Virus record (IMG/VR): IMGVR_UViG_3300043437_001049
Span: 1 to 45,424 of that record
Direction: 5' to 3' (one strand)
DNA length: 45,424 nt
DNA from: a virus
A program made the translations under genes and the position numbers. Below the pieces are notes generated by a model. That model did no database searches. It was not told the DNA's origin and saw only the letters and a list, made by a program, of their open reading frames with translations. Shown here piece after piece: positions 1 through 44,300 of the stretch. Numbering within the stretch: the stretch's first letter is position 1; each line of letters begins with the position of its first letter.

Positions 1-38
1 GCGGGCCGGAACCCCACGTGGCGCGGGGATCGCAGACG

Positions 39-70: not shown

Positions 71-292
71 GTAGATGGTGGTGGGCCTGTAACCCGCGCC
101 AAACCTAGCTAACTCAGCGCCTTACAACCGGCGCAAACTCGTGCGGAACGGTGCGGATCACCCCTCTACCTGCGGTGAATCGTAGCAGCTTGACCTCATC
201 ACCACCGCGATCACCGCCGCCAGCATCACCGCGAGTTCGATTCCGTATTGCTCAATCGAACCCGCGTCCGCAAGCCACGTCGGTGGCAACGG

Positions 293-790: not shown

Positions 791-893
791 GAGGCCTCCT
801 TTGGCGGTTAGGTCACGCGGCGATTGAGAGCCTTTGCCGCCTGGGCACACCCACAACGGTAATCACAATGCAGCGGATACAAACACTAAAACG

Positions 894-908
894 ATGTGTT
901 GGACACAT
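894..908. promoter_or_regulatory. Perfect palindrome, candidate BrxR operator
   Basis: ATGTGT-TGG-ACACAT is a perfect 6-bp inverted repeat with a 3-base spacer. It is flanked by CACTA (884-888) and TAGTG (911-915), a second, slightly offset inverted pair. The palindrome lies between the divergent PLD-like remnant and the WYL regulator and covers the -35 box of the promoter described at 899-928. BrxR-family WYL repressors are known to bind inverted repeats upstream of BREX operons, so this is the likely operator. Binding itself is inference. Confidence 0.6.
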
Positions 909-928
909 TCTAGTGCGGCTTATATACT
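899..928 (+). promoter_or_regulatory. Sigma70-type promoter of the defence operon
   Basis: A -35 box TTGGAC (899-904) and a -10 box TATACT (923-928) are separated by 18 bases. They are oriented toward the regulator gene that starts at 980, giving an untranslated leader of about 45 bases. The -35 box sits inside the palindrome at 894-908, so a bound repressor would block RNA polymerase. No second strong promoter is evident between the regulator and pglW. Confidence 0.55.
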
Positions 929-979
929 TCACGCAATAGCCCCCATAAGCCTTCGTTAACCGAAACGAGCACCCCCAGG

Positions 980-1894: not shown

Positions 1895-1981
1895 TATGAC
1901 TTCTCCACCAAACAACAGAGGAACGTTGGGCGCGACCGATCACCACCGTACTCGCTGCATCACCACACTCGGAGGTTGCCG

Positions 1982-4900
1982 GTGAGCGGGCGCTGGAAGA
2001 CGATTTCGCCGTCCCAGTTTCCGTGGGAACAGGATGCGCTCGACTTCGTGCAGCGCGCTCTGCCGAACCGCGAACCGTTCCGGGCCTACAGCAACTTCGA
2101 GTTTGTTGCCGACGACGGGAGCATCAACGAAGTCGACTTGCTGATCATTTCGCGGTACAGCATCTTCCTTGTTGAGATCAAGAGCCGCCCTGGGGAGGTC
2201 AGTGGCGATTCGCACACCTGGATCTGGCGGGACGGCGCCCGGGAGTACTTTGACGACAACCCCTTGCTGCTCACGAACCGCAAGGCAAAAAAGCTCGCCT
2301 CGCTGCTGCGTAAGCAACTGACTGTTCAGAAACGTCGCACGCCCTACATCCAGTCCCTGGTCTTCCTGTCCGACCCTGCGCAACGGTGCAGGCTCGCCGG
2401 TCCTGCCCGGGAAAATGTTCATCTGCGGGCCGACATCGCCAACAAGCTGTTCGACGAAACGGCCCCGGTGGCCAGCGCACAGCCCATAGACCGCGATCTG
2501 GCGACATCACTCAATCGGGCGCTGGAAGCCATTGGCATCCGTCCGCCGCAGCAGAGTCGGCGCGTTGGCGACTACCAGCTCGAACAGGTCCTTGCCGAGA
2601 CAGACTTCCACCAGGACTGGCTGGCCAAGCACGTATCGCTGACCAACCTGCGCCGACGTGTTCGCCTCTATACCGCCAAGCGCACGCTCAATGCCGGGCA
2701 GCGCTCCATGCTGGCCGACGCGGCTCGGCGAGAGTTTCAGTTACTTGAAGGCATACGCCACCCGGGCATCCTGCGCGCTTCAGACTTCATCGACAGCGAG
2801 CATGGGCCCGCCCTGATCTTTGAGTACGACGAAGGGCTGCAGCGACTCGACCACTTCATCCGGGCGCAAGGGGAACACCTCGATCTCTGGCAGCGGTTGA
2901 AACTGGTCCGCGCCATTGCTGAAGCACTGGATGCCGCTCACCGCTACCGCCTGTACCACCGGGGCCTGTCGCCGCAGACCATCATGGTCAGGACGGTTGG
3001 CACCAATTCGTTCGATGTCACCATCTTCGACTGGCAGATCGCCACGCGGCAGTTGCAAGAAGCCGAAGGCGAGACCACCGGAACGCTGCACGTCGAGATG
3101 CTCTCGGACCGTGTGGCTCAGGAGATATACCTCGCCCCCGAAGCGCGCAACGCGCCCCGGCCCGACTCCATCAAGCTGGACCTCTTTTCTCTCGGAGCCA
3201 TCTCGTACTTCGTACTCGCGGGTGAGCCTCCCGCCATCAGCGGCGACGAGCTGGTCACCAAGTGCGAACAAGGGCCCGGACTCACTTTGTCGGCCATGGT
3301 CAACGGCTGCCTGGCCGAGATTGAGGAACTCATCCAGTTCGCCACCTGGCCTTCGCCCGATGACCGGTTCAGCTCGACCAACGAATTCTTGGCCGCCCTC
3401 GACAAGGCGGAAGAAGCCCTCGAAGACGCGCTGACCGCACCGGCATCACCGCTGGCTTCGCCGCTGGAGGCCAACACCGGCAATGAGCTCAACGGCTTTG
3501 AAGTCATCCGCCGGCTCGGCAAAGGCGGCACCAGTCTGGCCCTTGAGGTACGCCGCAAGGGCGCAGGGCAGCCGCGCCAGGGTGTTTTCAAGATCGCCTT
3601 GGAGCCAGAGTACAACGAGCGGCTCAAGCGCGAAGCTGAGACGCTGGTGCGGCTACAGCCGCACCAGAACATCGTCCAGTGCTTTGAACGCTTCGAAATC
3701 GCGGGGCTGGCGACCCTGTTCCTCTCCTCGGCAGGCGATGAATCACTGGGCGAACGCCTGCGCCAAGAGGGTCGCCTGGGTTTGGACCTGCTGCAGCGGT
3801 TCGGTGAGGAGCTGATATCGGTTGTGGAGTACCTGGAGCGCGAGGGCGTACCGCACCGCGACATCAAGCCAGACAACATCGGCATCCGCCCGGGGACCGG
3901 CAAACGACTCACCCTCACGCTGTTCGACTTCTCGCTGGCGGGCGTTCCTGCGACTGACCTGAACGCAGGCACGCGTGTCTACATGGACCCGTTCCTGCGC
4001 AAACGCGGTATGTGGGACGGGTATGCCGAGCGCTACTCCTGCGCGCTGACCTTGCATGAAATGGCCACCGGCACCCTGCCCGAATGGGGCGATGGAAGCG
4101 CCGACCCGGCAACCCTGAAAACCGAGATCGGTCTGGACTCCGAGCGCTTTGATGCGTCGATTCGCAAGCAGGCACTCGACTTCTTCGCCCGGGCACTGGC
4201 CCGCGACCACCGCAAGCGCTTTGACAACGCCGAACAGATGCTGCGTCAGTGGCGCAAAGTGTTCGAAAACGTCTCGCGGCCCGTCACCACCCACACGACG
4301 CAAACACCGCAAGGCGACCTGCCCTTCGGTGATGAGCCAACGTCCGTCGAAAGCGGCGTCACGCCGAGCACGCCCATCGGGTCGCTGGAACTGGATTCTC
4401 GGCACCTTGAACTGCTCGATCGGATTGGCCACGAGGAATTGGCCACTGCGGGCGATCTGGCCGACTTGCCGCGCAATCGTCTCTACCGGCACCGTGGCAT
4501 CGCCTTGGCCGTCGCGCGTGAACTGCACCAAATTGCTGACCGACTGCGGCAACAGCTCAGCGGCGGCGCGGCCAAAGACGAGCAGCCCGCAGACACCACC
4601 GTGGCCAAGCTGTCGGTGGATGCGGCAGCCGCCTTGCTCGTGCCCAAGAAAGGCGACGACGCACAACTCCAGGCTCTGGAGGCTTGGCTGGGCTTGAGCG
4701 CACAGGCAGACGCATCACCACTGGCCGAGGACCTGTTGCAGTCGATGGCTGAGCGGATGTCGCGCCAGCCGGAAGTCACGCACCTGCGAGACGACGTGGC
4801 CCTTGTTTTGGCAGGGCTGGGCGGCATCGCCACGGTTGGCGAAATTGCCACCGCGTTGCTGGCCCGGCGCGGCAGCGTGCAAACGGGCCCAGCCCGACAC

Positions 4901-6193
4901 AGCGAGGCCGAAGCGCTGACGCGAGCGGTCATCACCGTCGAGCGCACCAAGCAAGCAGCTCGTTGGCAACTGGTGAAGCGCGACGCCAACGTTCGGCCGC
5001 TGACTGAAGCGCCGCAAGTCGACGATCTGGTGGTCGCCACCCTCGCCAGCAGCGGCGCGACCGGGCTGTTCCCCTCCGCACCTGAGGTGCGTGCCAGTTA
5101 CGCCGTGGTTCTGGGCGAAGCGGCCGACCGCCTGGCACAGCAAGACCCGCTGCCATCGTCACAACAGGTGGCCGACACCTTGGCGCGCGTCCCGCCACCT
5201 GCGGGGGATGCGGGCCTGAGCGCCGATCGCCTGATTCGCCTGGCGGCTGCGTGCGCCCGGCAGGCAGCCCTGTCCTCGCGCCTTGAGTTCTATCCGGTCC
5301 AGTTGTCCGCAGCACGCGCCGTCAAGCTGGCCACCAACTCGCTGCTCGGCTTGCGTCAGTTCGACATGGAGACCATCCGGCGTCGGATTTTTGCCCGCTA
5401 CCCAGAGGCGGCGCCTTTGCCCGGCCCCTCGGAGCTGGAGCAGCTGCTCAAGGACGCGGGCCTGGAAGTCAAGTGGGACGGAGCCAAGCGCGCGTTCGTC
5501 ACGCTTTATTCGGCGGGCATCATTTCTGGCACCACCCAGATCACCCGGTTCGGCACGACCAGCAACCGCCCGCGCTCGTCCACAGCGCCGGATGTACAGG
5601 CTGCACTGCAGATCGACGAGCGCATCAAGCACACCTTGACCAGCGGCAAGTTGCTCACGCTGTCTGTCGACCCTAAGGGCCTCGCGCTCGCGCAACGCGA
5701 ACTGTCGCAGCGGTTTGGCTTGAAGGTCATCGACTTCGACGAGGTCGTGCTCACGCTGCTTGAGGCGCAAGCCAAGGAATGGGAAGTGGACTGGAACATC
5801 CTGCTGGCAGCCGATGGCGCACCTGCGGGTTCGGTGGATGCACAGAACTTCGCGACCGTGCTCGGTGAAGTCTGGCCCAAGGTCGAGGCGCGACTTTTGC
5901 AGGACGACAAGCCGGGCTTATTGGTGAATCTTGGGCTGGCTGCACGCTGGCAGAGGATGCCGCTGTTTGCCAAGCTGGCCGATGCCTGCATGTTTGGCAA
6001 GCGCCCGCCGCTGGTCGCCTTGATTGCCAGCCCTCTGACGCCTGACAACCGCCCCGTGCTGGATGGCGAAGCCGTTCCGGTCACCATCAACACCACCGAC
6101 TACGGTCGTATCCCCCGCGCTTGGCTCGAAAACGCCCACCGCACACACGGCAGCGCGGCCGCCACGCCCAGCACGAAGTCAAAACAACCATGA
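1982..6193 (+). CDS. pglW: PglW: NERD nuclease-like and dual protein kinase domain protein
   Basis: PglW is the Ser/Thr kinase of the Pgl/BREX type 2 defence system. The GTG at 1982 is chosen because GGAGG ends 6 bases upstream; the in-frame TTG at 1976 abuts that site. The 1403-residue product has a NERD domain (residues about 12-150) with NEVDLLI and LVEIKSR, the D...ExK pattern of PD-(D/E)XK nucleases. A first kinase-like domain (about 195-480) is degenerate: HRGLSPQ replaces HRDLKPxN and DWQ replaces DFG. A second kinase domain (about 500-760) keeps GKGGTS, the VFKIA lysine (537) and HRDIKPDN (625-632), but has DFS for DFG. The C-terminal 600 residues are mainly helical and unassigned. 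It ends in a 4-base ATGA overlap with pglX. Confidence 0.88.
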   Translation: MSGRWKTISPSQFPWEQDALDFVQRALPNREPFRAYSNFEFVADDGSINEVDLLIISRYSIFLVEIKSRPGEVSGDSHTWIWRDGAREYFDDNPLLLTNRKAKKLASLLRKQLTVQKRRTPYIQSLVFLSDPAQRCRLAGPARENVHLRADIANKLFDETAPVASAQPIDRDLATSLNRALEAIGIRPPQQSRRVGDYQLEQVLAETDFHQDWLAKHVSLTNLRRRVRLYTAKRTLNAGQRSMLADAARREFQLLEGIRHPGILRASDFIDSEHGPALIFEYDEGLQRLDHFIRAQGEHLDLWQRLKLVRAIAEALDAAHRYRLYHRGLSPQTIMVRTVGTNSFDVTIFDWQIATRQLQEAEGETTGTLHVEMLSDRVAQEIYLAPEARNAPRPDSIKLDLFSLGAISYFVLAGEPPAISGDELVTKCEQGPGLTLSAMVNGCLAEIEELIQFATWPSPDDRFSSTNEFLAALDKAEEALEDALTAPASPLASPLEANTGNELNGFEVIRRLGKGGTSLALEVRRKGAGQPRQGVFKIALEPEYNERLKREAETLVRLQPHQNIVQCFERFEIAGLATLFLSSAGDESLGERLRQEGRLGLDLLQRFGEELISVVEYLEREGVPHRDIKPDNIGIRPGTGKRLTLTLFDFSLAGVPATDLNAGTRVYMDPFLRKRGMWDGYAERYSCALTLHEMATGTLPEWGDGSADPATLKTEIGLDSERFDASIRKQALDFFARALARDHRKRFDNAEQMLRQWRKVFENVSRPVTTHTTQTPQGDLPFGDEPTSVESGVTPSTPIGSLELDSRHLELLDRIGHEELATAGDLADLPRNRLYRHRGIALAVARELHQIADRLRQQLSGGAAKDEQPADTTVAKLSVDAAAALLVPKKGDDAQLQALEAWLGLSAQADASPLAEDLLQSMAERMSRQPEVTHLRDDVALVLAGLGGIATVGEIATALLARRGSVQTGPARHSEAEALTRAVITVERTKQAARWQLVKRDANVRPLTEAPQVDDLVVATLASSGATGLFPSAPEVRASYAVVLGEAADRLAQQDPLPSSQQVADTLARVPPPAGDAGLSADRLIRLAAACARQAALSSRLEFYPVQLSAARAVKLATNSLLGLRQFDMETIRRRIFARYPEAAPLPGPSELEQLLKDAGLEVKWDGAKRAFVTLYSAGIISGTTQITRFGTTSNRPRSSTAPDVQAALQIDERIKHTLTSGKLLTLSVDPKGLALAQRELSQRFGLKVIDFDEVVLTLLEAQAKEWEVDWNILLAADGAPAGSVDAQNFATVLGEVWPKVEARLLQDDKPGLLVNLGLAARWQRMPLFAKLADACMFGKRPPLVALIASPLTPDNRPVLDGEAVPVTINTTDYGRIPRAWLENAHRTHGSAAATPSTKSKQP

Positions 6194-9100
6194 TCAATCG
6201 CACCAAGCTGCTGGCGGACCTGAAGGTCCAAGTCCGAGACCTGGAGAGCGATCTGCGCGGTCGCTTTACCACCCATGCGGAGTACAAGAGCCGCCTCACG
6301 GCCGAATGGCAGGCGGCACGCGACGCCGGGCGCACATCAGAGGCCGTGGAGACTTGGTCTGAAGCGCAGTTCACCCAGTCCGCCGTAGCCTGGGTCTTGG
6401 CCTGCGTGTTCGTCCGCTTCTGTGAAGACAACGCTCTGCTCGACGCGCCGCTGATCGCCGGCACGGACGCCCGGGGTCAATCTGCCGTAGCGAGACAGGA
6501 AGGCTTCTACCTCCAAAACCCGACTGCTTCAGACAACGACTACCTGCACGACGTGTTCGCGGTCGCGAGCCGCCTACCTGGCCTGTCAGACGTCATGAAA
6601 GTCCAGCGCGTCTTGCTGACGGCCCCCGTCTCTGCCGACATGGGCAAGCAACTGGTGCGCTTCTTCCGGGCCACCAATGCCGACACTGGCGCGCTGGTTC
6701 ACGACTTCGCTGATCCTGACTGGAATACCCGATTTTTGGGCGATCTGTACCAGGACCTGTCGGAGGCCGCGCGGGATCGGTACGCCCTGCTGCAGACACC
6801 AGAGTTCGTTGAATCCTTCATCCTGGACCGCACGCTGACGCCTGCGCTCGACATCTACACACTGGAAGAAGTCGATCTGATCGACCCGACCTGCGGATCG
6901 GGGCACTTCTTGCTCGGCGCCTTTGAAAGGTTGGCGCCACGCTGGCTACGCAAGCGGCCAGACAACGTCAATCTGGCATTGCAGGAGGCCTTGGACCGCA
7001 TCGCGGGCATCGACCTGAACCCCTACGCCGTGGTGATCGCCCGGTTCCGACTGCTGGTGGCTGCGCTCAAGATGGCCCAAGTGCACAAGCTGAGACTTGC
7101 GCCGGACTTCCATCTGCACATTGAAACTGGCGACAGCCTGTTGCACGGATTCGATCAGCGCGACTACGCACGAGCACAGGTATCGCTGGCATTGAACACA
7201 CCGCAAGAGAATCTGGCGACGGCTGCTGACCATCTGTATCGCCACGCGTTCGCAGCAGAGGACTTGACCGCGACCAATCAGATCCTGGCGAGAAAGTACG
7301 CGGCGGTGGTGGGCAACCCGCCGTATATCGCGGTCAAGGACCGTGCGGTTTCTGCCTTGTATCGAGAGCGCTTCTCCAGTTGCCACGGAAAGTACGCTCT
7401 CGTCGCGCCATTCTGCGAGAGATTCTGGGCATTGGCAAAGCCCATCGACAACGCGCAGCGAGCGGGCTACGTCGGCCTGATTGTCGGCAATGCATTTATG
7501 AAGCGCGAATTTGGGAAGAAGTTGGTTGAAGCCTTCTTCCCAGCGCTGGATCTCACCCATGTGATTGATACCGCCGGCGCGTATATCCCTGGGCACGGCA
7601 CACCAACTGTCATCATGTTTGGCCGAAACCGCCCACCATCAAGCAACGTGATTCGTGCGGTCATGGGGATAAAGGGTGAGCCCTCCACACCTGTAGACCC
7701 TGCTCAAGGCATTGTATGGCGTGCGATTGTCAATCAGATCGATCAACGGGGATCTGAATCCGAATGGATTAGCGTCACAGATACTGATCGACCAGTGTTC
7801 TCTCGACATCCATGGAGCATTGGAGGCGGAGGAGCGTCAGAACTCAAAACTGAAATTGAAGAAAATGCGGCCGGCAAGCTCAGCGCGATCACCGATGAAA
7901 TGGGGATTGTCAGCGTCAGTGGCGAGGATGATGTCTATTTAATCGAACAAAGAGGAGTCGCCGAGCGGCACGGAATTGAATCGGTTCGCGACCTTGTTAC
8001 CGGAGATCAGGTCCGAGATTGGACTGCCTCAGGACTTACGGCAGTTTGGATTTACGACAACGATTTCAATCTGCAGTCAATCGAAAACGCCCCCAAGACT
8101 CATCGCTTTCTTTGGTCGTTCAGGACTAATTTATCAAAGAGAAGACGCTTTGGTACACCTATGCTGGAGCGTGGATTATCTTGGTATGAGTGGCAGGAGC
8201 TTTACTCGTCAAAGATTAGATCCCCCTTGACTATCACCTATGCTTTTGTCGCAACTCACAATCACTTTGTCCTAGAGCGTGGTGGAAAAGTATTCAATCG
8301 GTCAGCGCCGGTCATCAAGCTTCATCAGACCGCAACGGAGGATCAGTATCTTGGAATACTTGGAGTTTTGAATTCATCATTGGCCTGCTTTTGGGCTAAG
8401 CAGGTCTTTCACAACAAAGGCAGTACGGTTGATCAACACGGGGCAAGGCAGAGAACTGATGCCTTTGAAGATTTCTACGAGTTCACATCCACAGGGCTTG
8501 GCAAATATCCACTGCCAGAGACTTTCCCCTTAGCAACGGCAAAACTGCTGGATGAATTAGCCCGAAATTACATAGACGGATTGCCAAGCAAAATAATCGA
8601 TTCACCGATTCCAAGCCGTCAACATCTTGACGCAGCAAAGACAATCGCTCATTCAAGTCGCGAGAGAATGATCAGCTTGCAGGAGGAGCTTGATTGGGAA
8701 GTCTATAAGCTGTACGGCCTAACCGATGAAGACCTTGGACTCAGTGGCGATGTGCCTGCATTAGAACTTGGGCAACGTGCATTTGAAATTGCGCTTGCCC
8801 AGGACTGCGCCTCAGGCGCGGCGAGCACGACTTGGTTCGAACGGCATAGCTCGCAACAGATCACGTCTACGCCAGCCCATTGGCCAGCAGACTACCGTCT
8901 CGTTGTTGAGAGGCGCATAGCCACAATTCGACGCTCGCGAGACATCGCTTTGATTGAGCGTCCGGAATTCAAGCGACGCTGGGCCAGCGAGGACTGGAAC
9001 TCACTGGAAAAGACTGCTCTTGAACAATGGCTCTTGAAGCGTCTGGAGGCCGTTGACCTTTGGCAGCGCGATGCGCATCCTGCGCCGAAGTTGCGTTCGG

Positions 9101-9873
9101 TACGCGAACTGGTCGACGCCTTATCCGGCGACGACGATTTCCGGCGCGCTTTGGACTTGTATGCAGGCACCGGTAGCGATGCGCATGCGACCGTTGTAGC
9201 GCTGGTGCAGCAAGCATGCGCTCCTTATCTGGATGCACTGCGGTACAGCGAAAGCGGATTGCGAAAGCGTGCGGTCTGGCGGAACACCTGGCTGATGCAG
9301 CGGCGTGAGGATGCAATCGATTCGTCAGTGGCTCAGCGATTGAGTGGTGAGCCAACTGAGGTCATCAAGGATGAACAGGCTCGCCGTAAAGCTGCAGAAG
9401 TGGGTGCCATCCCCGTCCCGCCGAAGTACAAGCAAGACGACTTCCGCGACGGTGTCTGCTGGAAGTTGCGTGGGGCGCTGGATGTCCCCAAAGAACGCTT
9501 TGTCAGCTTCCCTGGGTTGGAGCGCAGCAACGATGCTGGAAGCCCAATGCTGCTTTGGGCCGGCTACGACGCCAAGGCCCGTGCCCTGGCGCTAACGGGC
9601 CACCTGTACGAGATGCTGCAACGCGAGGGCGCCGACGCGTCTCGCTTGACGCCTGCGCTGGCCGGGCTGGATGAACTGCTTCCCTGGGTTCACCAGTGGC
9701 ACAGCGAGATCGACGACGACCTGGGCATGAGTACCGGCGACTACCTTCAGGGCTTGCTCGATGCGCAACTGGCCCAGCACGGGCTAACACTCACGGCGGT
9801 GCGTGCCTGGCAGCCGCCTGCGCCTGTTCGCCGCACGCGCGGCAGACGCTCCAGCGCAGCCGCGCAGGCCTGA
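6190..9873 (+). CDS. pglX: PglX: adenine-specific DNA methyltransferase of Pgl/BREX
   Basis: PglX methylates the host DNA motif and is required for self/non-self marking in BREX. The ATG at 6190 overlaps the pglW stop, so translation is probably coupled; an upstream in-frame ATG at 6121 lies inside pglW and is rejected. The 1227-residue protein has the S-adenosylmethionine motif DPTCGSGHFLLG (residues about 232-243) and the gamma-class N6-adenine motif GNPPY (375-379). The segment after the catalytic domain (about 7,640-8,780, residues 485-865) is visibly more AT-rich than the rest of the operon and probably contains the target-recognition region. That suggests exchange of specificity by recombination. 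Length and motifs fit type 2 PglX. Confidence 0.9.
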   Translation: MINRTKLLADLKVQVRDLESDLRGRFTTHAEYKSRLTAEWQAARDAGRTSEAVETWSEAQFTQSAVAWVLACVFVRFCEDNALLDAPLIAGTDARGQSAVARQEGFYLQNPTASDNDYLHDVFAVASRLPGLSDVMKVQRVLLTAPVSADMGKQLVRFFRATNADTGALVHDFADPDWNTRFLGDLYQDLSEAARDRYALLQTPEFVESFILDRTLTPALDIYTLEEVDLIDPTCGSGHFLLGAFERLAPRWLRKRPDNVNLALQEALDRIAGIDLNPYAVVIARFRLLVAALKMAQVHKLRLAPDFHLHIETGDSLLHGFDQRDYARAQVSLALNTPQENLATAADHLYRHAFAAEDLTATNQILARKYAAVVGNPPYIAVKDRAVSALYRERFSSCHGKYALVAPFCERFWALAKPIDNAQRAGYVGLIVGNAFMKREFGKKLVEAFFPALDLTHVIDTAGAYIPGHGTPTVIMFGRNRPPSSNVIRAVMGIKGEPSTPVDPAQGIVWRAIVNQIDQRGSESEWISVTDTDRPVFSRHPWSIGGGGASELKTEIEENAAGKLSAITDEMGIVSVSGEDDVYLIEQRGVAERHGIESVRDLVTGDQVRDWTASGLTAVWIYDNDFNLQSIENAPKTHRFLWSFRTNLSKRRRFGTPMLERGLSWYEWQELYSSKIRSPLTITYAFVATHNHFVLERGGKVFNRSAPVIKLHQTATEDQYLGILGVLNSSLACFWAKQVFHNKGSTVDQHGARQRTDAFEDFYEFTSTGLGKYPLPETFPLATAKLLDELARNYIDGLPSKIIDSPIPSRQHLDAAKTIAHSSRERMISLQEELDWEVYKLYGLTDEDLGLSGDVPALELGQRAFEIALAQDCASGAASTTWFERHSSQQITSTPAHWPADYRLVVERRIATIRRSRDIALIERPEFKRRWASEDWNSLEKTALEQWLLKRLEAVDLWQRDAHPAPKLRSVRELVDALSGDDDFRRALDLYAGTGSDAHATVVALVQQACAPYLDALRYSESGLRKRAVWRNTWLMQRREDAIDSSVAQRLSGEPTEVIKDEQARRKAAEVGAIPVPPKYKQDDFRDGVCWKLRGALDVPKERFVSFPGLERSNDAGSPMLLWAGYDAKARALALTGHLYEMLQREGADASRLTPALAGLDELLPWVHQWHSEIDDDLGMSTGDYLQGLLDAQLAQHGLTLTAVRAWQPPAPVRRTRGRRSSAAAQA

Positions 9874-9898
9874 CACGAATCACGAGGGATACAACAAC

Positions 9899-12800
9899 AT
9901 GCCAAAACTACGCGAGATATTTGACCTGCCCGAACAGGTCCACCAGGGCGACTTTGTTCTGCGCCTGACCGACGGCTTGAACACCCCAGCGGAAACCGTG
10001 CGCGACTACATCGCCACGCCCCAGTTGGTGAAGTGTTTTGATCAGGCGCTCGGCGTGGTCAAGGGTGCGATCGACAGCCGCATGAGCAAGGGCGCTTACC
10101 TGCACGGCAGTTTCGGCTCGGGTAAGAGCCACTTCATGGCCATCCTTTCGCTGCTGCTGCGCGGCGACGCCACGGCCCGTGGCAAGCCAGAGTTGGCTTC
10201 GGTGGTGTCCAAGCACAACGGCTGGACGCAGGGAAAGAAGTTCCTGGTTGTGCCGTACCACATGATCAATGCCGAGACGCTGGAATCGGCACTGTTCTCG
10301 GGCTATGCCGAGCTGACTGCACGCCTGCACCCCGACGCGCCGAGCCCCGGTTTCTACCAGAGCGAGGGCATGCTCAACGATGCGCAGAAGCTGCGCACGC
10401 AGATGGGAGACGAGGCCTTTTTCCGCACCCTGAACGGTGCGACCGGTGCCGCCACCGGAGGCGGCGGCTGGGGGCGTGTCACGCAGACCTGGGCCCCTGC
10501 GCGCTTCGAGGCCACGCTGAAAGTGCCGCCCGGCAGCCCAGAGCGCTTCCAACTCGTCGGTGCGCTGACACGCGCCTTCTATGGCAGCGTGAGCCACCTC
10601 TCTGCCTCGCAGCGCGAGATGTACACCTCGCTCGACGAAGGCCTGTCGGCAATGTCGCATCACGCCAAGGACCTGGGCTACGACGGCATCATCCTGTTCC
10701 TGGACGAGTTCATCCTCTGGCTGGCCAGCCGGGCCGCCGATGTGGCCTGGATTGCCCGCGAAGGACAAAAGGTCGCCAAGCTGGTGGAGTCGAGCAACGC
10801 CGACCGACCGACGCCCATCGTCAGCTTCATGGCCCGCCAGCGCGATCTGCGCGAACTGGTTGGCGAGCACATGCCCGGCGCCGAACAGTTGTCGTTTGCC
10901 GACACGCTGCAGTATTGGGAAGCGCGCTTCGACAAGGTGAATCTGGAAGACCGCAACCTTCCAGAAATCGCCAAGAAGCGCCTGCTGCGCACGCGCGGCC
11001 CTGCCGAGGAAGCGCTACTAAGGGGTGCCATAAACAAGCTGCTCAGCAGCCAGCCCGAAGTGCTGCAAACCCTGCTGACACGCGATGGCGATCAGCAGAT
11101 GCTGCAGGATCTGTACCCCTTCACACCGGCACTGGTTCAGACCCTGATCGCCGTCTCGTCGATGCTGCAGCGCGAGCGCACAGCACTCAAGCTGATGCAG
11201 CAAATGCTGGTGGACAAGGCCGACACGCTGGAGATTGGCGACGTCATCCCGGTGGGCGATCTGTTCGATGTGATTGCCGACGGCGACGAACCGTTCACCC
11301 ACGGCATCAAGCTCTTTTTTGAGCAGGCCAAGCAGCTCTGGCGTCGTCGCCTGCTGCCGATTCTGGAAACCCAGCACGGTGTGACCTGGGAAGACATCGA
11401 GGCGGGCAAGGCCGACCCGAAGAAGGCTGCCGCGCTGCAAAACGACGCCCGTCTGCTCAAGACCCTGGTGTTGGCCGCTTTGGTGCCCGAGGTAGAAGCC
11501 CTGAAGAACCTGACGCCCACCAAGCTGGCGGCGCTGAACCACGGCACGATCCGCACGCCAGTGCCTGGCAGTGAGGGCATCACTGTACTGACCAAGCTCA
11601 AGCGTTGGGCGGGCCAGGCGGGTGAGATCAAGATTGCCGACGACTCGCCGAACCCGATCGTGTCGGTGGAAGTCGCCAAGGTGGACACGGATGCCATTCT
11701 GGCCAACGCGATGTCGTTCGACACGCAGGGGAACCGGCAGGCAGAAGTCAGGCAACTGATCACCGATGGTCTGGGGCTCGCCGACGTCGGCTCCAGCCTG
11801 CTGCCCCCGGAGATGGAGATCAGTTGGCGCGGCTCGCGCCGCAATGCGGAGATTCTGTTTGGCAACGTCCGCGAGCAGTCCTTCGACACTCTTAAGGGGC
11901 GCGAAGGGACGTGGCGCATCCTGATCGACTTCCCGTTTGACCACCAACCCGAACACGGCCCACAAGACGATGTGGCCAAGATCAACGGCTTCCTCAACGA
12001 CGGCCGGGTCGGGCGCTCGGTGGCCTGGCTGCCGTCCTTCCTGTCACCCAACACCCAGGACCAGTTGGGGCGGCTGGTGGTCATCAATTTCGTGCTGCGT
12101 GGCAACAATCTCGATCAGTACGCCAGCCAACTGTCGCAGGCAGACCGTGAGCAGGCGCGAGTACTGCTGACAAACCAGCGGGACCAACTGCGGCAGTTCA
12201 TTCGCAACTGCTTGTACACCGCCTACGGTCTCAACAGTGTGGCCCAGGAAGCGCTGGACCCAGCGCAGACCGTCGACGAGCACTATTTCAGCCTCGACCC
12301 CTCTTTGGTCTTGCGCCCACCGGTGGCGGCCAACTTCAAAGGTGCGTTCGAGAAGTTGACCGAACAAGCGCTGGACTACGAGTTTCCAGCCCACCCGCAC
12401 TTTGATGCCGAGCCCAGGCCGATTGCTGTGAAACGCCTGGCTGATCTGATGGTGCTGGCAGCCCAAAAGCCAGCCCATCGGGTCGAGCTCGAAGCCTCGC
12501 TTCGGGACGACGCCAAGCGCATCGCACCCAAGCTTGATCTGGCTGAGGTGGGCGAAGCAGCGCTGCAGTTGCGCGATGACTGGTCGCAGCACTTTGCCCG
12601 ACAAATCGCGCAGCAATCTGGCCGCGAACCCACTGTGACCGACCTCCGCCGTTGGCTGGACCTTCCCGACAGGCGCGGCCTGCGCGAAGACCTGCAAGAC
12701 CTGGTGATCCTGACCTGGCTGGCCAAGAGCAATCGCTCCTTGTACCGTTTCGGCCAGCCCTTCAAGGGCGAAATCGGCAACGTGCCCAACGAGTGCGAGG

Positions 12801-13597
12801 TGCGCGAGCAGCCCTTGCCTACCACGGCCGACTGGGACAAGGCCACCAAGTTTGCCGGCGATATGTTGGACCCGGCCATGGCAGCGCTGTACCGGTCAGC
12901 ACCGGGACTGGTGGAGTTTTCTCGCGCGGCACGCAAGCGTGTGACCGACACGGCAGCCCATTTGCTGAACTACCTGCGCGTGGTCGAGCAGTTGATGACC
13001 TTGGTGCAGACCGATGTCGTCGCCACAGGTGAGCCTGCCCTTCGCAAGACAGGCGCAACCCGCCTGCGCGACTGGTTCGCGGCCATGGAGTCCAGCAGCT
13101 CGGAGTTTGACCTCGTCAACCTCGTGGCGAGGCTGGACTTCAGCACCGAAGAAGTCGCCGAAACCAAGGCGGTTCTCGGTGGGGTCCAGGCACTGGCACG
13201 TGTCGAGGCCAAGCACTACCTGGTCAACAGTCTGCGCTCGATCGCGAGCGGCAGCGGTGAGTTTGCGCCGCGTGCCAACCAGATTCTGGAGAGCCTGGCG
13301 CACGCTGTACTCCGCTACGAGTACGTCGATGGACTTCAAGCCGCTGTCGCCCAGTTCGAACGCGACGCGGGAACGCTGATGGCCGATGTCGCCAACCGGG
13401 CGACGCCACCGGCCCCGCAGCCTCAGCCCGCGCCGGAGCCAGAGCCGGAACCCGGCATGAAAGCGCCGCAACGCATTGAGCGCGCTAGGCTGGTGAAGAC
13501 CGATGCCCTGCAGGCATTGGCGGATGCGCGCACGCTGCTTGAGGGACTCGGCGAGGTCAGTGTGGACATTCAGATCGTGATCCGGGAACAGGAATGA
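9899..13597 (+). CDS. pglY: PglY: P-loop ATPase of Pgl/BREX (BrxC/DUF6079-like)
   Basis: PglY is the large ATPase of the Pgl/BREX type 2 complex, related to BrxC. The start is the ATG at 9899 (protein begins MPKLREIF), with GAGGG about 11 bases upstream and 25 bases after pglX; the longer open frame back to 9803 overlaps pglX and is not used. The 1232-residue product has a Walker A motif GSFGSGKSHF (residues 70-79, lysine 76) and a Walker B motif IILFLDEF (acidic pair at 269-270). A Pro/Glu-rich linker with repeated PEP units lies near residue 1175, before a short C-terminal domain. Its stop overlaps the pglZ start by 4 bases, so the two are probably translationally coupled. Confidence 0.87.
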   Translation: MPKLREIFDLPEQVHQGDFVLRLTDGLNTPAETVRDYIATPQLVKCFDQALGVVKGAIDSRMSKGAYLHGSFGSGKSHFMAILSLLLRGDATARGKPELASVVSKHNGWTQGKKFLVVPYHMINAETLESALFSGYAELTARLHPDAPSPGFYQSEGMLNDAQKLRTQMGDEAFFRTLNGATGAATGGGGWGRVTQTWAPARFEATLKVPPGSPERFQLVGALTRAFYGSVSHLSASQREMYTSLDEGLSAMSHHAKDLGYDGIILFLDEFILWLASRAADVAWIAREGQKVAKLVESSNADRPTPIVSFMARQRDLRELVGEHMPGAEQLSFADTLQYWEARFDKVNLEDRNLPEIAKKRLLRTRGPAEEALLRGAINKLLSSQPEVLQTLLTRDGDQQMLQDLYPFTPALVQTLIAVSSMLQRERTALKLMQQMLVDKADTLEIGDVIPVGDLFDVIADGDEPFTHGIKLFFEQAKQLWRRRLLPILETQHGVTWEDIEAGKADPKKAAALQNDARLLKTLVLAALVPEVEALKNLTPTKLAALNHGTIRTPVPGSEGITVLTKLKRWAGQAGEIKIADDSPNPIVSVEVAKVDTDAILANAMSFDTQGNRQAEVRQLITDGLGLADVGSSLLPPEMEISWRGSRRNAEILFGNVREQSFDTLKGREGTWRILIDFPFDHQPEHGPQDDVAKINGFLNDGRVGRSVAWLPSFLSPNTQDQLGRLVVINFVLRGNNLDQYASQLSQADREQARVLLTNQRDQLRQFIRNCLYTAYGLNSVAQEALDPAQTVDEHYFSLDPSLVLRPPVAANFKGAFEKLTEQALDYEFPAHPHFDAEPRPIAVKRLADLMVLAAQKPAHRVELEASLRDDAKRIAPKLDLAEVGEAALQLRDDWSQHFARQIAQQSGREPTVTDLRRWLDLPDRRGLREDLQDLVILTWLAKSNRSLYRFGQPFKGEIGNVPNECEVREQPLPTTADWDKATKFAGDMLDPAMAALYRSAPGLVEFSRAARKRVTDTAAHLLNYLRVVEQLMTLVQTDVVATGEPALRKTGATRLRDWFAAMESSSSEFDLVNLVARLDFSTEEVAETKAVLGGVQALARVEAKHYLVNSLRSIASGSGEFAPRANQILESLAHAVLRYEYVDGLQAAVAQFERDAGTLMADVANRATPPAPQPQPAPEPEPEPGMKAPQRIERARLVKTDALQALADARTLLEGLGEVSVDIQIVIREQE

Positions 13598-15792
13598 AGG
13601 TCCCGGCGCATCAAATCAGCCTCCAGGCCAAGCAGGCCCACGAGGCCGACCCACGAGCAAGGTTCATCCTGCTGCGGCTGCCGCCAGATGCCTTCGATGG
13701 TGCGGCGGTGGATGTGAACGCCGGGAGCTGGCCAGTCTCGGCCTGCAGTTCCCCGTTGTCGGTTCGAGATGCCATGAGACGTCATTCAACCAGCACGACG
13801 CCGGTTGTCTTGCTGTTCTCAGGTGACGAGAGTGACTTGGGCTCTGACGTACTGGCCCGCTGCGCCAAGCGGCGCGCCATTAGCCACGACCTTTGGCAGA
13901 CCGTCTTGGCGCTGTTTCGGGCGGCGCACATTGATCCGCGATTGGCCCGCCACCGCTGGTTGGCCGAACTGCTTGTGCGGTACATGCCAGCAGAGGGATA
14001 CGCCCCGGTTCGATCACTCGTCCTGGATCAAGACCGCGCCTGGAAAGAGCTGTTCCGGGTTGTCTTGGGCTTCGAGTCCTATCCGCCGACCGAACTTGAC
14101 CTGCTGAAATGGGCCGGCGATGCCCAGCGGCGAGAGCAATTCAAGGCACTGGAAGACACCGCCCGTCAGGAGACAGTCCAACGGTTACGTGAAGCGCTGG
14201 GCGACCTGGTGAGCTTTGTCTTCGCGGCCATCGACACGGGCAGCGCAGATGAACTGGTCGCCATTGCCATGCTCTGTGAAGCCCTGGAAGACAAGACCGC
14301 TGGCACGGAGGCGAGTCGGGCAAAGGTGGCTGCCCGACTGGAGGTGCTGTTCGATGGACTGACGATTTCGGCACACACCACGCACCAACTGGCTGGCGCA
14401 GCTGACGCCTGGTTCGACCGCGCCCCAGAGGCAGCCAAACAGCAGCAGGTTGCACGCTACGAGTCGCTGGTGACACAGCTGAAGGCTGAGTCGCTGGCGG
14501 CGCATGCACGGTATGGGAGCGCAGCACTGCGCGAAAAGACAAAGGCCTTCGCGGGCGCACTGAACGAACTCAACCTGTCCGAGGCCATTTCGCGATTTGG
14601 GCGTCTGATGGCCCACCGTGGGCCGGTTCTGAACAGTCGCTCGGAGCTCCGGTGCAAGATGGCTGTGCGGCTGGTGAGCTGGCTCACGCAAACTGCCAAC
14701 TCATTTCCGTCGGCATTGAATGCGCTCGCTGAGCAATATCGGAACGAAATCGCCTGGGTTGATTGGGCGCAGACGGTACTGCTGGAGGGCGACGACTCTG
14801 CTGACTTGGCGAACGCCTATGGAATTCTGCGCGAGAACACGCGCGTTCGAAGGGACTTGTTTGACCGTCGGTTCGCCGAGTCACTGTCGGCCGATCAGCC
14901 AAACGGGACGACGCTGATTCCGATCGAGGACGCGCTCGACAAGTGCGTCGCACCGGTTGCGGTGGCTGGTCGCAGCTTGCTGATCGTGGTAGACGGGATG
15001 AGCATTCCCGTTTTCCTTGAGCTGCATCACAGCCTGACAGATCACGGCTGGGTTCAGTTCGAGCGCGCGGAAGGCTCCTGCTCGACCCTGTTGACCATGC
15101 TGCCGTCTACAACAGAGGCATCCAGGACGTCGCTGCTTTGCGGTACTGCTTGTGCTGGCTCAGCGTCGACGGAGAGGTCAGCATTCAGTGCCTACCCGTC
15201 GCTCGTTGCCCCGTCTGTTGCTGGCAAGCCGCCAGCCATTTTTCACAAGCGAGACTTGCTCGACAGTTCTGGCGTCACCCTTTCGGATGACCTGAGAACG
15301 GCCCTGAGCGACACACGGCAGCGGGTCGTTGCGGTTGTGATCAATGCGGTGGACGATCACTTAATGAAGTCTGACCAACTTCGCCTTCGCTGGGACATTG
15401 CACAGTTCAAGGGGCTGGACGCACTGCTGGCGGAAGCACGGTCATCCGACCGGGCAGTGATCTTCACAAGCGACCACGGCCATGTGCTCGACCAGGACAC
15501 CACGATGCAGGGGGCGAGCCCCAATGCTCGATGGCGAGAACCAAATCTGGAAGCCTATCCCGGCGAGATTGCCCTGAAGGGCAAGCGAATCAAGGCTGCA
15601 AGTGGCATGGACGAGGTTGTTCTGGCCTGGAACAGCAAGTTGCGCTACGCCAGCAAGCGAAATGGCTACCACGGTGGCTGCGCGCCTGCCGAAGCGCTTG
15701 TTCCGTTCGCAACCTACCGCTATGGCACCAAAGCTGCGGAAGGTTGGAGCATTCGAGACGAATCCGCACCCGCCTGGTGGCAGGCGCGATGA
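13594..15792 (+). CDS. pglZ: PglZ: alkaline-phosphatase-superfamily protein of Pgl/BREX
   Basis: PglZ is the signature protein of BREX systems and belongs to the alkaline phosphatase superfamily, with a predicted metal-dependent hydrolase fold. The ATG at 13594 overlaps the pglY stop (ATGA). In the 732-residue product, the first metal-site aspartate is in LLIVVDGMS (residue 467) and the C-terminal site is SDHGHV (626-631). The N-terminal 450 residues are mostly helical. From memory it is shorter than many actinobacterial type 2 PglZ proteins, which are nearer 900-970 residues; both active-site clusters are present and no frameshift is seen. It is followed 30 bases later by the DUF262 gene. 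Confidence 0.85.
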   Translation: MKVPAHQISLQAKQAHEADPRARFILLRLPPDAFDGAAVDVNAGSWPVSACSSPLSVRDAMRRHSTSTTPVVLLFSGDESDLGSDVLARCAKRRAISHDLWQTVLALFRAAHIDPRLARHRWLAELLVRYMPAEGYAPVRSLVLDQDRAWKELFRVVLGFESYPPTELDLLKWAGDAQRREQFKALEDTARQETVQRLREALGDLVSFVFAAIDTGSADELVAIAMLCEALEDKTAGTEASRAKVAARLEVLFDGLTISAHTTHQLAGAADAWFDRAPEAAKQQQVARYESLVTQLKAESLAAHARYGSAALREKTKAFAGALNELNLSEAISRFGRLMAHRGPVLNSRSELRCKMAVRLVSWLTQTANSFPSALNALAEQYRNEIAWVDWAQTVLLEGDDSADLANAYGILRENTRVRRDLFDRRFAESLSADQPNGTTLIPIEDALDKCVAPVAVAGRSLLIVVDGMSIPVFLELHHSLTDHGWVQFERAEGSCSTLLTMLPSTTEASRTSLLCGTACAGSASTERSAFSAYPSLVAPSVAGKPPAIFHKRDLLDSSGVTLSDDLRTALSDTRQRVVAVVINAVDDHLMKSDQLRLRWDIAQFKGLDALLAEARSSDRAVIFTSDHGHVLDQDTTMQGASPNARWREPNLEAYPGEIALKGKRIKAASGMDEVVLAWNSKLRYASKRNGYHGGCAPAEALVPFATYRYGTKAAEGWSIRDESAPAWWQAR

Positions 15793-15822
15793 GACGCGAT
15801 TCAGGGATCAAGGAATGAGAGC

Positions 15823-17658
15823 ATGGCACGAATAGAAAACCACAAATACAGCATCGAGGAAGCCTTCAGGGAGTGCTTCTACATCGTCCCGGACTACCAG
15901 CGCGAGTACGTCTGGACGGACAAAGAGGTCCACCAACTCCTTGAGGACATCAACGAGCAAATAGACGCGGGTTCGACCCGGGAATACTTCATCGGTACGG
16001 TGCTGGTGTCGCCGACCGATCAGAAGAATCACTATGAGGTGATCGACGGGCAGCAGCGCCTGACAACTTTCTTCCTGCTGCTCTGCGCCTTGAAGCATGT
16101 GTTCCAAGCTGAACCACAGAGGCAGACCGTCAGCGGTTTGATCTCGACCAGCTACACCGACAGCGACGGCGAGACGAGGACCAGTCTGAAACTGGAGCCG
16201 CGCTACGAAAGCGCAGGCGAGGTCATGGCCAAACTGGTGGAGTTGGACGCCGACCCGCAAGCCGTGCGTGCCGGTATCCAGGCAGCAGGTATCGCCAGCT
16301 TCGGATCGCTGGAAAACCTGGTCAACGCCTACGGAACGCTTCACCGCTACCTGAAGGACAACTACGACGACGCAGCCAAGCTGAAGAAGTATTGGGGCTA
16401 CCTGGCCAACAACGTCGTGTTCATCCAGATCTCGACGGATGTGAGTAGCGCGTTGAAGATCTTCGAAACCATCAACGAGCGCGGTGTCGGGCTGAACCCC
16501 ATGGACTTGCTAAAGAACCTGCTGTTCACGCAGGTCAAGCAGATCCAGTTCACCCAGCTCAAGGATGAGTGGAAGAAGATCACCAAGCCGCTGGAGAAGG
16601 AGAAAGAAAAGCCGCTGCGGTTCCTTCGCTATTTCCTGATGGCCAACTACGTCATCAAGAACGAGCGTGGAGACGCAGTGGTGCGGGAAGATGAGATCTA
16701 CGATTGGTTCGTCGACAAGGACAACGCTGCGTTGTGCGACTACGCGAACAAGCCGTTTGAGTTCGTGCGGAAGGTCATTCGCAGCGTCGAGCACTACCTC
16801 GCCTTCGGCAATGGCCTTGGCAACGATGGCAAGCCGAGTCTTGCGATGGACAGTCTCAAGCGGTTGGCTGGTGGCGCGTTCAGCTTGCACTACGTCTTGC
16901 TGCTGGCAGCGGCTGCCTTGCCCAAGCCGCTGTTCGATCACTTCGTCGCCCAGCTCGAGAGCTTCCTGTTCTATTACATCTTCACCAAGACGCCGACCAA
17001 GGATCTGGAGCGGAACTTTTCGGTGTGGGCCGACGAGCTGAGGGCGATTGCTGCGGTGACGGACCCGGTAAAGCAGCGGCTAGCTCTGAACGCGTTCGTG
17101 GCGGACCGATTTGAGAGCAACATGGCAGCGAAATCGCCGGAGCTGTCAGATGCGCTCAAGCGCTTCTCGCTGTACACGATGCAGCAATACCGGACCCGGT
17201 ACCTGCTGGCACGGTTGACCCAGCACGTCGACATGGCGTTCAGCGGCGTCAAGTCACCGGGCAGCCTGGAGCCGTACACCAATCTAGAAATCGAGCACAT
17301 CCTGCCGGACACGCCCACCGCAGCGCTGCGGGGCAAATGGGCCACGGAGAACCCGGGCGCTGCGTATGACGACTACAAGAACCGGCTGGGCAATCTGACT
17401 CTGTTGGAGAAGCCGATCAATATCGTGGCTGGGAACGATTTCTACGCGACGAAGCAGACCGAGTACCGTAAGAGCAGCAACTACCTCACGCGCAGCTTGG
17501 TCGAGCTGACCAGCGTCGGGCAGAACACGTCAATCTCCCGGATCAACGAGAAGTTGGAAGCCTTCCCCTCCTGGGAAGCCGCATCGATCGAAAGGCGGCA
17601 CAGCATGCTCATGGCGCTGGCTCGGGATGTCTGGAAAACGACGCCCATCGAGGTCTGA
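15823..17658 (+). CDS. DUF262/DUF1524 GmrSD-type protein, BrxU-like
   Basis: This 611-residue protein has the two-part layout of GmrSD type IV restriction enzymes. The N-terminal DUF262 (ParB/sulfiredoxin-like nucleotide-hydrolysing) domain shows VPDYQREYVW (residues about 22-31) and DGQQRLTT (75-82). The C-terminal DUF1524 domain, a His-Me/HNH-type nuclease, shows EIEHILP (His 492) and NRLGNLTLL, followed by the Asn/Phe/Tyr positions of that family. GmrSD enzymes cut modified phage DNA. BrxU, a GmrSD homologue in a known BREX island, complements BREX in this way, so a similar partner role is inferred. The ATG at 15823 has AAGGA upstream. No domain is truncated. Confidence 0.85.
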   Translation: MARIENHKYSIEEAFRECFYIVPDYQREYVWTDKEVHQLLEDINEQIDAGSTREYFIGTVLVSPTDQKNHYEVIDGQQRLTTFFLLLCALKHVFQAEPQRQTVSGLISTSYTDSDGETRTSLKLEPRYESAGEVMAKLVELDADPQAVRAGIQAAGIASFGSLENLVNAYGTLHRYLKDNYDDAAKLKKYWGYLANNVVFIQISTDVSSALKIFETINERGVGLNPMDLLKNLLFTQVKQIQFTQLKDEWKKITKPLEKEKEKPLRFLRYFLMANYVIKNERGDAVVREDEIYDWFVDKDNAALCDYANKPFEFVRKVIRSVEHYLAFGNGLGNDGKPSLAMDSLKRLAGGAFSLHYVLLLAAAALPKPLFDHFVAQLESFLFYYIFTKTPTKDLERNFSVWADELRAIAAVTDPVKQRLALNAFVADRFESNMAAKSPELSDALKRFSLYTMQQYRTRYLLARLTQHVDMAFSGVKSPGSLEPYTNLEIEHILPDTPTAALRGKWATENPGAAYDDYKNRLGNLTLLEKPINIVAGNDFYATKQTEYRKSSNYLTRSLVELTSVGQNTSISRINEKLEAFPSWEAASIERRHSMLMALARDVWKTTPIEV

Positions 17659-17676
17659 CAAGGGAGCGCAATCACG

Positions 17677-17895
17677 ATGTCAAATCCAAACACCCCCCCA
17701 GCGATGTGCGCCGACTGCGATGCATTGGTCGGCGCCTCCCGTAGCACCAGGCCGCATGCGAACCTTGAGCACCAGGACAGCCGGAAGGTCTCGTCGATGA
17801 TGGGCGCCGCTGACGAGGCCTACTACCGGTGCAAAGTCTGCGGCCATGAATGGCTGCATGAGACGGGCTCTTGCGGCATGGGCTGGGTTGCATAG
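17677..17895 (+). CDS. Small zinc-ribbon protein at the end of the defence operon
   Basis: The 72-residue protein contains two CxxC knuckles, Cys11-Cys14 (MCADCDAL) and Cys52-Cys55 (RCKVCGHEW), about 37 residues apart. This is the arrangement of a zinc ribbon. A third cysteine (66) lies in a GSCGMGW tail. It starts 18 bases after the DUF262 gene with GGGAG upstream, so it is probably in the same transcript. It ends 8 bases before the stop of the convergent phage endolysin gene. I do not recognise a named family. A nucleic-acid or protein-binding accessory of the DUF262 nuclease is one possibility; a chance neighbour is another. Confidence 0.65.
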   Translation: MSNPNTPPAMCADCDALVGASRSTRPHANLEHQDSRKVSSMMGAADEAYYRCKVCGHEWLHETGSCGMGWVA

Positions 17896-17903
17896 GAGCC
17901 GCC

Positions 17904-18362
17904 TCACACGGTCAGCAAGGCCACCTCGGCGCTGCGCCGCGTCACAAGACCCGGCAGCACTTTCCCGCCGCCATAGACCCACCGCCGCAGCTCCTGCCCG
18001 ACTGCGATCCAGTCCTGCTGATTGACCCTCCGCCGTAGGGTCGATGTCTGTAGCCGCCCGGCGCCGAGGTTGAACGTGAAGTCGACGATCGCCGCGAGCC
18101 GTCCCTCTGGCTGGGTAGCCAACACGGGGCAGAATCGCAGCGTCGCATCGAGCGCGGTCACAAGGTCCCGCGTCAGATAGGCTTCCCCCTCGGCCTGAGA
18201 GATCGGCGGGTGCGTCTGGACACAGAGATGGCCGTAGCCGATGGTCCAGAACCCGGCCGGACAGACGTAGGGATGAGCACGATCGGGATCGGACTTCGGC
18301 ACGCGGTGGAAGCCCTCGAATCGCTTGGCCAGATCGACCGCTGCCTTCGGCACTCCGCTCAC
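17904..18362 (-). CDS. Phage endolysin, GH24 lysozyme
   Basis: The 152-residue protein is a T4-type (GH24) muramidase that cuts peptidoglycan at lysis. It carries the family pattern: the catalytic Glu in KRFEGF (residue 16), then PAGFWTIGYGH, with SQAEGEAYL and the Asn-rich FNLGAG segment further on. No signal peptide or SAR segment is evident, so export would rely on a holin. The start is a GTG at 18362 in a 4-base GTGA overlap with the holin gene; the longer open frame in front overlaps the holin and is not used. It is the last gene of the prophage late operon and converges on the defence operon. Confidence 0.85.
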   Translation of the reverse strand: MSGVPKAAVDLAKRFEGFHRVPKSDPDRAHPYVCPAGFWTIGYGHLCVQTHPPISQAEGEAYLTRDLVTALDATLRFCPVLATQPEGRLAAIVDFTFNLGAGRLQTSTLRRRVNQQDWIAVGQELRRWVYGGGKVLPGLVTRRSAEVALLTV

Positions 18363-18835
18363 GGACGCACTCGGTCGAACACACGCCCGAGGAACCAGAA
18401 GTTCAACACCCCGGCCCACAGCGCCTGATCCGCTTCCGTCCAGGCGTGCAGGATGGCCGTGCCCCAGCCAGCGCCAGCGGTGACGGCAGCCGCGAATGCC
18501 GCCGTCTTGGCCGCGCAGTACAGCGCCATGAACCAGTAGGTGATCACAGGGCGCACGCTGCACGATAGTGCGTCGGCCCAGCGCACCCCATTGCGCTGCC
18601 CTTGCGCGGCGACCGACTCCCGAAGAGCCTCGATGGCGCCGACGTTCCAAGCCGCGTCGGCACTGGCGCCGATCTCAGACATGCGTTGCGCGCCGCGCAG
18701 CTTCTCGAACTCCAGCGCCTTGTCCTGCATCGCCAGCTCGTGGCCACGCTCGCCTTTGCGGTCGAGCCACTTGAGGAATTCAGGCGCAAGACGGAAGGCC
18801 CCACCAAGGAGGCCACCCAGCAAGGTCTCGATCAT
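18359..18835 (-). CDS. Holin, 3TM family-like
   Basis: This 158-residue protein starts with a short hydrophobic segment (LLGGLLGGAF), then a charged helical part (EFEKLRGAQRMSEIG), then two hydrophobic segments (VITYWFMALYCAAKTAAF and a segment around AWTEADQALWAGVLNFWFLG). This layout matches the phage/GTA three-TM holin family. It would open the inner membrane so the downstream endolysin can reach the wall. Its ATG (18835) overlaps the stop of the preceding small membrane protein, and its stop overlaps the endolysin GTG, so the three form one translationally coupled lysis cassette. The family is recalled, not searched. Confidence 0.7.
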   Translation of the reverse strand: MIETLLGGLLGGAFRLAPEFLKWLDRKGERGHELAMQDKALEFEKLRGAQRMSEIGASADAAWNVGAIEALRESVAAQGQRNGVRWADALSCSVRPVITYWFMALYCAAKTAAFAAAVTAGAGWGTAILHAWTEADQALWAGVLNFWFLGRVFDRVRP

Positions 18836-19131
18836 TGGCCACCTCCCATCAGCTTGAGCTTGATTGCGGCACCGACGAGAAGCGCCGCCAAGATACCGGT
18901 TGTGATGACCTTGATGACGGTCTGCCAGGCGGTACGCCGGGCGTCGCGCCACGCCTCCAGGAGATTCCGCAGTTCGTGGATGTCTCGTGCTGCGGTGCTG
19001 CTCTCCAACCCGAGGTGGGACAGCGCGCGTTCTGCACCGCGCTCGGCGGCACGGTCGAGCAGATCGTCGAAGTCCTCCTTGCGCATCAGGAGCATGTTTT
19101 CGACAAGCATGGGGGATTCGGGATCGGTCAT
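18832..19131 (-). CDS. Small membrane protein in lysis cassette (DUF6127-like)
   Basis: This 99-residue protein has a charged N-terminal helix (FDDLLDRAAERGAERAL, then LRNLLEAWRDARR) and one C-terminal transmembrane segment (VITTGILAALLVGAAI). It looks like DUF6127-type phage proteins found next to holins. The start at 19131 has GGAGAG just upstream. It may be a second holin, an antiholin or a spanin-like partner; the sequence does not decide. No recognisable Rz/Rz1 spanin pair is seen in the cassette. Confidence 0.65.
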   Translation of the reverse strand: MTDPESPMLVENMLLMRKEDFDDLLDRAAERGAERALSHLGLESSTAARDIHELRNLLEAWRDARRTAWQTVIKVITTGILAALLVGAAIKLKLMGGGQ

Positions 19132-43986: not shown

Positions 43987-44004
43987 ACATCGAAGGACAC
44001 GGAA

Positions 44005-44202: not shown

Positions 44203-44214
44203 TCAAGAACTTTC

Positions 44215-44280: not shown

Positions 44281-44300
44281 CCTTGCACAAGGAGAAGCAA

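Follow-up and report, generated by a model that had tools for sequence, protein, structure and literature searches.

The window analysed here comprised the whole of IMG/VR record IMGVR_UViG_3300043437_001049 (45,424 bases), in which two operons of opposite direction were found to meet tail to tail. One, on the plus strand between 980 and 17895, encoded a WYL regulator, PglW, PglX, PglY/BrxC and PglZ, followed by a GmrSD-type protein and a Zn-ribbon protein of 72 aa. The other, comprising the late phage genes, ran on the minus strand from 43911 to 17904 and ended with the lysis cassette. The features of the window were as follows.

1–75, minus strand: host DNA downstream of ssrA (79–90% identity with family relatives, in which this DNA immediately follows the ssrA 3' end)
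44–70, within this host DNA: predicted ssrA terminator
76–82: attR core TGGTGGT, the complement of ACCACCA at the ssrA 3' end (another copy of the element, L235, matches from exactly base 76; empty sites end at 81–82)
296–856, minus strand: orphan ORF of about 178–187 aa, divergent from the WYL gene (ORF list and L235 copy sequence)
900–928, plus strand: sigma-70-like promoter TGGACA-17-TATACT upstream of the WYL gene, predicted from sequence
980–1894, plus strand: WYL-domain regulator at the head of the cargo operon (Pfam WYL, 8.6e-12)
1976–6193, plus strand: PglW with NERD and two kinase domains (NF033442, 1509 bits, cut-off 990; PADLOC)
6190–9873, plus strand: PglX, BREX-2 methyltransferase (NF033451, 1499 bits, cut-off 400)
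9899–13597, plus strand: PglY/BrxC ATPase (PADLOC BrxC-PglY, full length; NF047891, 948 bits, below the cut-off of 1700)
13594–15792, plus strand: PglZ, BREX-2 phosphatase (NF033446, 568 bits, cut-off 200)
15823–17658, plus strand: GmrSD-type (DUF262-DUF1524) type IV restriction enzyme (Pfam GmrSD_N and GmrSD_C)
17677–17895, plus strand: Zn-ribbon protein, 72 aa (CxxC pairs; 67–85% homologues beside GmrSD in L002–L009)
17896–17903: gap of 8 bases between the convergent operons, without a terminator
17904–18368, minus strand: endolysin (phrog_7, 4.7e-42)
18359–18844, minus strand: phrog_6637 lysis-cassette protein, without a function in PHROGs
18832–19131, minus strand: phrog_10540 lysis-cassette protein (PHROGs)
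19206–43911, minus strand: late operon with tail, tape measure, major capsid, protease, portal, TerL and TerS genes (PHROGs)
43912–45424: start of the early region (80–88% identical to the early side of prophages in genomes G003, G006, G019 and G023)

The first-pass annotation had described the two stops as almost in contact, with no integrase or att repeat separating them, and this description was confirmed. The Zn-ribbon ORF ended with TAG at 17893–17895 on the plus strand, and the endolysin ORF on the minus strand ended at 17904–17906 (TCA on the plus strand). The spacer was exactly 8 bases (17896–17903, GAGCCGCC), and neither an integrase gene nor an att core lay between the two genes. A terminator was sought in the junction sequence and none was found. 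The true start of the endolysin was placed near 18368 and not at the ORF start, 18650. It was found that a Burkholderiales MAG contig (CAIVGK010000254.1, L053) was 100% identical to window positions 13981–18752, across the junction. Two viral contigs (L002 and L195) and one genome contig (L091) had the same tail-to-tail layout of GmrSD, Zn-ribbon and endolysin genes at 80–85% DNA identity. Because the junction was identical in L053 and homologous in the other three, it is no assembly accident. Tight spacing was a family trait, the next ORF often starting 4–100 bases past the endolysin in the 64 genome loci of the census described below. In L006, L007, L009 and L200, one extra gene of about 0.8–1.1 kb was present between the GmrSD/Zn-ribbon genes and the endolysin, implying that small gains and losses occur in this gap and large deletions do not.

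The assignment to BREX-2 was based on PglW, PglX and PglZ, all of which scored above their NCBIfam cut-offs. PglY/BrxC matched the full length of the PADLOC BrxC-PglY model (E=0), and its score below the NCBIfam cut-off was indicative of a diverged member. No accessory BrxD or BrxHI was detected among the operon ORFs, and GmrSD and Zn-ribbon genes occupied their place. Because both accessory genes were absent and PglY was diverged, BREX-2 activity appears likely, not certain. The dN/dS values were low for PglZ (0.035, compared with L205), GmrSD (0.04–0.09) and the Zn-ribbon protein (0.07–0.09), which indicated that these genes are maintained. PglZ had no match among sequenced phages. Homologues of the WYL regulator, at 84% and about 55%, headed other cargos, and the window DNA from 900 on was 80% identical to a prophage of Pseudoduganella danionis. 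The orphan ORF at 296–856 had no NCBIfam match; it was retained, with changes, in L235.

The GmrSD-type protein combined DUF262 (GmrS) and DUF1524 (GmrD) in a single polypeptide, with both Pfam domains above cut-off and a DGQQR motif. Its EHILP motif differed from the DHIYP described for GmrSD homologues in the literature. Homology with about ten relatives began at the start of GmrSD itself (15809–15823), and the genes upstream of it were unrelated in those relatives, except in L205, which also had BREX-2. When 24 GmrSD proteins were placed in a tree, the window protein (BREX-2) paired with that of L002 (HMA-like system) with support of 97/99, and the L205 protein (BREX-2) paired with that of L206 (type III R-M) with support of 100/99. 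In L091, GmrSD was 91–94% identical to the window DNA, and the adjoining lysis and tail genes were about 80% identical. These comparisons point to GmrSD, which is under purifying selection, as an end gene common to many different cargos. Its occurrence with otherwise unrelated systems suggested that cassettes are exchanged at conserved edges.

It had been proposed that the operon might be prophage-borne, adding about 17 kb near an att site, and an attR was indeed located beyond the defence genes, at 76–82. The MAG that contains L053 also has a further copy of the element, L235 (95% identical). It matched the window from exactly base 76; before this base the two sequences differed, with L235 joining different host DNA. 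The shared core read ACCACCA on the minus strand. When 201 family genomes were searched with window positions 1–82, the best matches showed 79–90% identity and ran to base 81 or 82. Positions 4–81 were 90% identical to the DNA directly after ssrA in L252, and 80–83% identical in other relatives, where the tmRNA gene finishes at this base. In 8 of 10 fetched cases, the 3' end of ssrA, the tmRNA gene, as located by ARAGORN coincided exactly with the match; in these empty sites the joined sequence was typically ...CCAGCTCCACCA, followed by the flank found in the window. The remaining two sites (G017 and G018) were occupied, and G018 (Tepidicella xavieri) carried a prophage of the same group as that in the window. 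The occupied ssrA sites listed were those of the window, G031 and G018, compared with eight tmRNA-bearing empty sites. Because of the ssrA-flank matches and the L235 match from base 76, positions 1–75 were assigned to host DNA past ssrA, 76–82 to attR and 83 onward to the prophage, which places the BREX operon inside it.

The same attR was observed in T. xavieri about 11.9 kb past the endolysin, with a heat-stress island between. Other relatives (G003, G019 and G023) used the 3' end of tRNA-Phe, and a right end at CCACCA was also seen in G003 and G006. Long direct repeats were sought as att sites and none were found; the core was only about 7 bases. The phage was integrated at the ssrA 3' end of a betaproteobacterium, probably one of the Burkholderiales. 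The search for att repeats and an integrase, proposed in the first-pass annotation, yielded the attR, and the integrase and attL were not reached, as the record is truncated at 45424, within the early region and before both. The matching MAG (G001) also ends short of attL and the integrase, its contig C136 stopping at a position equal to window 43795.

The relatives were surveyed for what occupies this place. The phrog_6637 lysis-cassette protein, the best-conserved marker of the phage group, was used as query to fetch 80 genome loci, and the 64 with at least 3 kb past the endolysin formed the base of the census. Defence labels came from PADLOC scans of cluster representatives, not of every protein; metal, stress and McrC labels were read from the sequences. 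At least one defence gene was present past the endolysin in 40 of the 64 loci. A copper/heavy-metal operon was present in six, and its P-type ATPase and MerR alone in three more (about nine); a Clp/HtpX heat-stress island was found in three. Loci outside the defence, metal and stress classes were left unclassified. The defence systems in genome loci included type I R-M, BREX-3, BrxL-containing systems, HMA (HmaB/HmaC) and a PLD-helicase with DarG (DarTG), to which viral contigs added type III R-M and BREX-2. L106 and L108, with a recombinase close past the lysis genes, were apparently cargo-free, as were L037, L056 and L098, in which ordinary-looking genes directly followed the endolysin. In complete relatives, the interval from this lysis cassette to attR or to a recombinase module was occupied by other cargo. 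Relatives differed in total length (about 57 to 69 kb), so the largest might not be packaged in full.

The copper/heavy-metal-like operons directly past the endolysin in L051, L067, L080, L083, L085 and L100 encoded a sensor kinase, a regulator, a multicopper oxidase and a P-type ATPase. A near-identical 50-kb prophage including its type I R-M cargo was observed in Pandoraea nosoerga (L063, G006:C7:89363-139232) and Cupriavidus cauae (L061, G007:C6:107119-57244). Their identity of 97.8% indicated recent transfer between genera.

Two prophages that differ in their cargo illustrated the exchange. Those of P. danionis (G003) and a MAG (G023) were 92–94% identical from the tRNA-Phe site up to and including the endolysin, with 93.9% identity in the ParB-ParB-recombinase module at the other edge of the cargo. 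Between these shared edges, G003 contained 7.1 kb (WYL, a RecQ-like helicase and others) and G023 contained 20.3 kb (WYL, BREX-3 and others). The comparison implied that the cassette was wholly replaced between near-identical flanks. G006 and G019 likewise had both edges in common and different cassettes. The edges thus acted like recombination points.

Some further features of the prophage ends were observed. In G003, G006, G019 and G023 (L215–L231), two different serine recombinases, both reading inward, were present, one near each prophage end; the second adjoined two ParB-like genes just past the cargo slot, and either of the two may integrate the phage. In G019, L203 and L207–L209, GmrSD was also found at the opposite end of the prophage, next to DUF2924 and a serine recombinase. 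There it stood alone (86–90% identical; C73:157020-158855 in G019) between a conserved gene of 289–312 aa and the DUF2924-recombinase pair, forming a second cargo slot. In T. xavieri (G018:C5, L266–L269), the Clp/HtpX heat-stress island lay past the lysis genes and a WYL/type I R-M operon past the recombinase at the other end.

Other explanations of the junction were weighed against these data. If the operon were chromosomal and the prophage had inserted alongside it, the true prophage end would lie within 17896–17903. Many IMG/VR contigs of relatives stop just past the endolysin, as if callers or attachment sites ended there, and the ordinary-looking genes at this position in L037, L056 and L098 would also fit. 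However, a search near 17.9 kb for an att site separating the late operon from the defence genes found none, while the attR with its ssrA flank lies at 76–82. Moreover, unrelated hosts have similar cassettes past these lysis genes, and cassettes are swapped inside otherwise collinear prophages. A chromosomal operon was regarded as very unlikely.

ssrA is a frequent target of islands, and the cargo could instead be a genomic island or satellite of its own, inserted in tandem at this ssrA site between the prophage and the host DNA. The ParB-ParB-serine recombinase module past the cargo in some relatives might then be that of the second element, and cargo was also found at the other prophage end. 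But an integrase was absent from the ORFs in window 83–17895 and no second core was found between cargo and lysis genes. In addition, the module was as conserved between G003 and G023 as the phage backbone, which suggests a module of the phage itself; the tandem arrangement was judged unlikely. Only 8 bases separate two unrelated operons, as might be expected of an assembly chimaera or of the deletion considered in the first-pass annotation. Recurrence of the junction in independent records, with flanking genes intact and under purifying selection, spoke against a deletion, and a scar or chimaera seems scarcely credible.

We consider it highly probable that the junction marks the inner boundary of a cargo slot carried by a temperate tailed phage integrated at ssrA, with cassettes exchanged among relatives and a cargo that would protect the host. 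In the window, attR (76–82) is followed by the orphan gene, the WYL regulator, BREX-2, GmrSD and the Zn-ribbon gene. In the opposite direction the endolysin, lysis, tail, head, terminase and early genes follow, the last being cut off by the record end. With its own promoter-like site and WYL regulator, the operon should be active in the lysogen. Resident DNA would be methylated by BREX-2, which would block incoming phages that lack the methylation, and GmrSD would cut modified phage DNA; together they would allow the prophage to protect its host against competitors. Lysogenic conversion that shields the host from competing phages is the likely role. The cassette is swapped among related prophages between the lysis-cassette/GmrSD edge and the WYL promoter region or the attachment-side module, probably by homologous recombination. 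In the excised attP, the early end would be joined to TGGTGGTGGGCC, and the cargo would presumably be packaged in the virion with the phage genes.

P2-like prophages and P4-like satellites of E. coli have defence hotspots that also combine a fixed prophage position, conserved phage flanks and varied anti-phage systems (Rousset et al. 2022, PMC9122126). Those hotspots hold short systems and are said to be without BREX and type I R-M, whereas the slot described here sits between the lysis cassette and attR and holds cassettes of 7–20 kb including BREX-2, BREX-3, type I/III R-M and HMA. It may therefore be viewed as a large-capacity variant of the known hotspots. The 59.4-kb temperate phage AcaML1 of Acidithiobacillus (JX507079), whose attB is listed as the tmRNA gene, spelt srrA (PMC3826726), has a related lysis cassette (a phrog_10540-type gene, then lysozyme) directly followed by dcm-mcrB-mcrC. 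Unlike in the window, its cargo is a small McrBC set that includes insertion sequences and reads in the direction of the late genes, and its tail genes are of the contractile type; the block was not called a hotspot in the literature found.

On plasmid pEFER, BREX-1 and BrxU, a type IV enzyme of the GmrSD family, are complementary in one locus (PMC8565348). There brxU lies within a type 1 operon on a plasmid, whereas in the window gmrSD is 3'-terminal to BREX type 2 and common to other systems. WYL regulators of the BrxR/CapW type control defence systems (PMC9122601, PMC9122589), and the window likewise has a gene for a predicted WYL-domain regulator first in a defence operon. Lateral transduction was discussed for defence genes near att sites and their turnover, with stress on chromosomal genes (PMC12829572), whereas the genes in the window are inside the prophage. 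In a paper on Erwinia prophages, BREX was treated as a host system and not as prophage cargo (PMC9866893). Among the open-licence literature, no paper naming an endolysin–attR slot as a hotspot was found.

BREX, type I R-M and other large systems are generally assigned to chromosomes, plasmids and integrative elements. The slot offers a possible reason why cargo would escape prophage callers whose calls end with the last phage gene, and the genes just past the endolysin are a place to seek new defence systems. It also raises the testable question of whether cargo varying by more than 10 kb is all packaged. A prophage slot for large systems helps to explain their spread between genera. It seems fairly likely that this temperate group is widespread in Beta- and Gammaproteobacteria, with a large cargo bay of about 7–20 kb between the lysis genes and attR and a second at the recombinase end. 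Defence systems, copper operons and heat-stress islands would be exchanged there as cassettes between the WYL, GmrSD and lysis-cassette edges, and these phages may be general vectors of large islands, including BREX.
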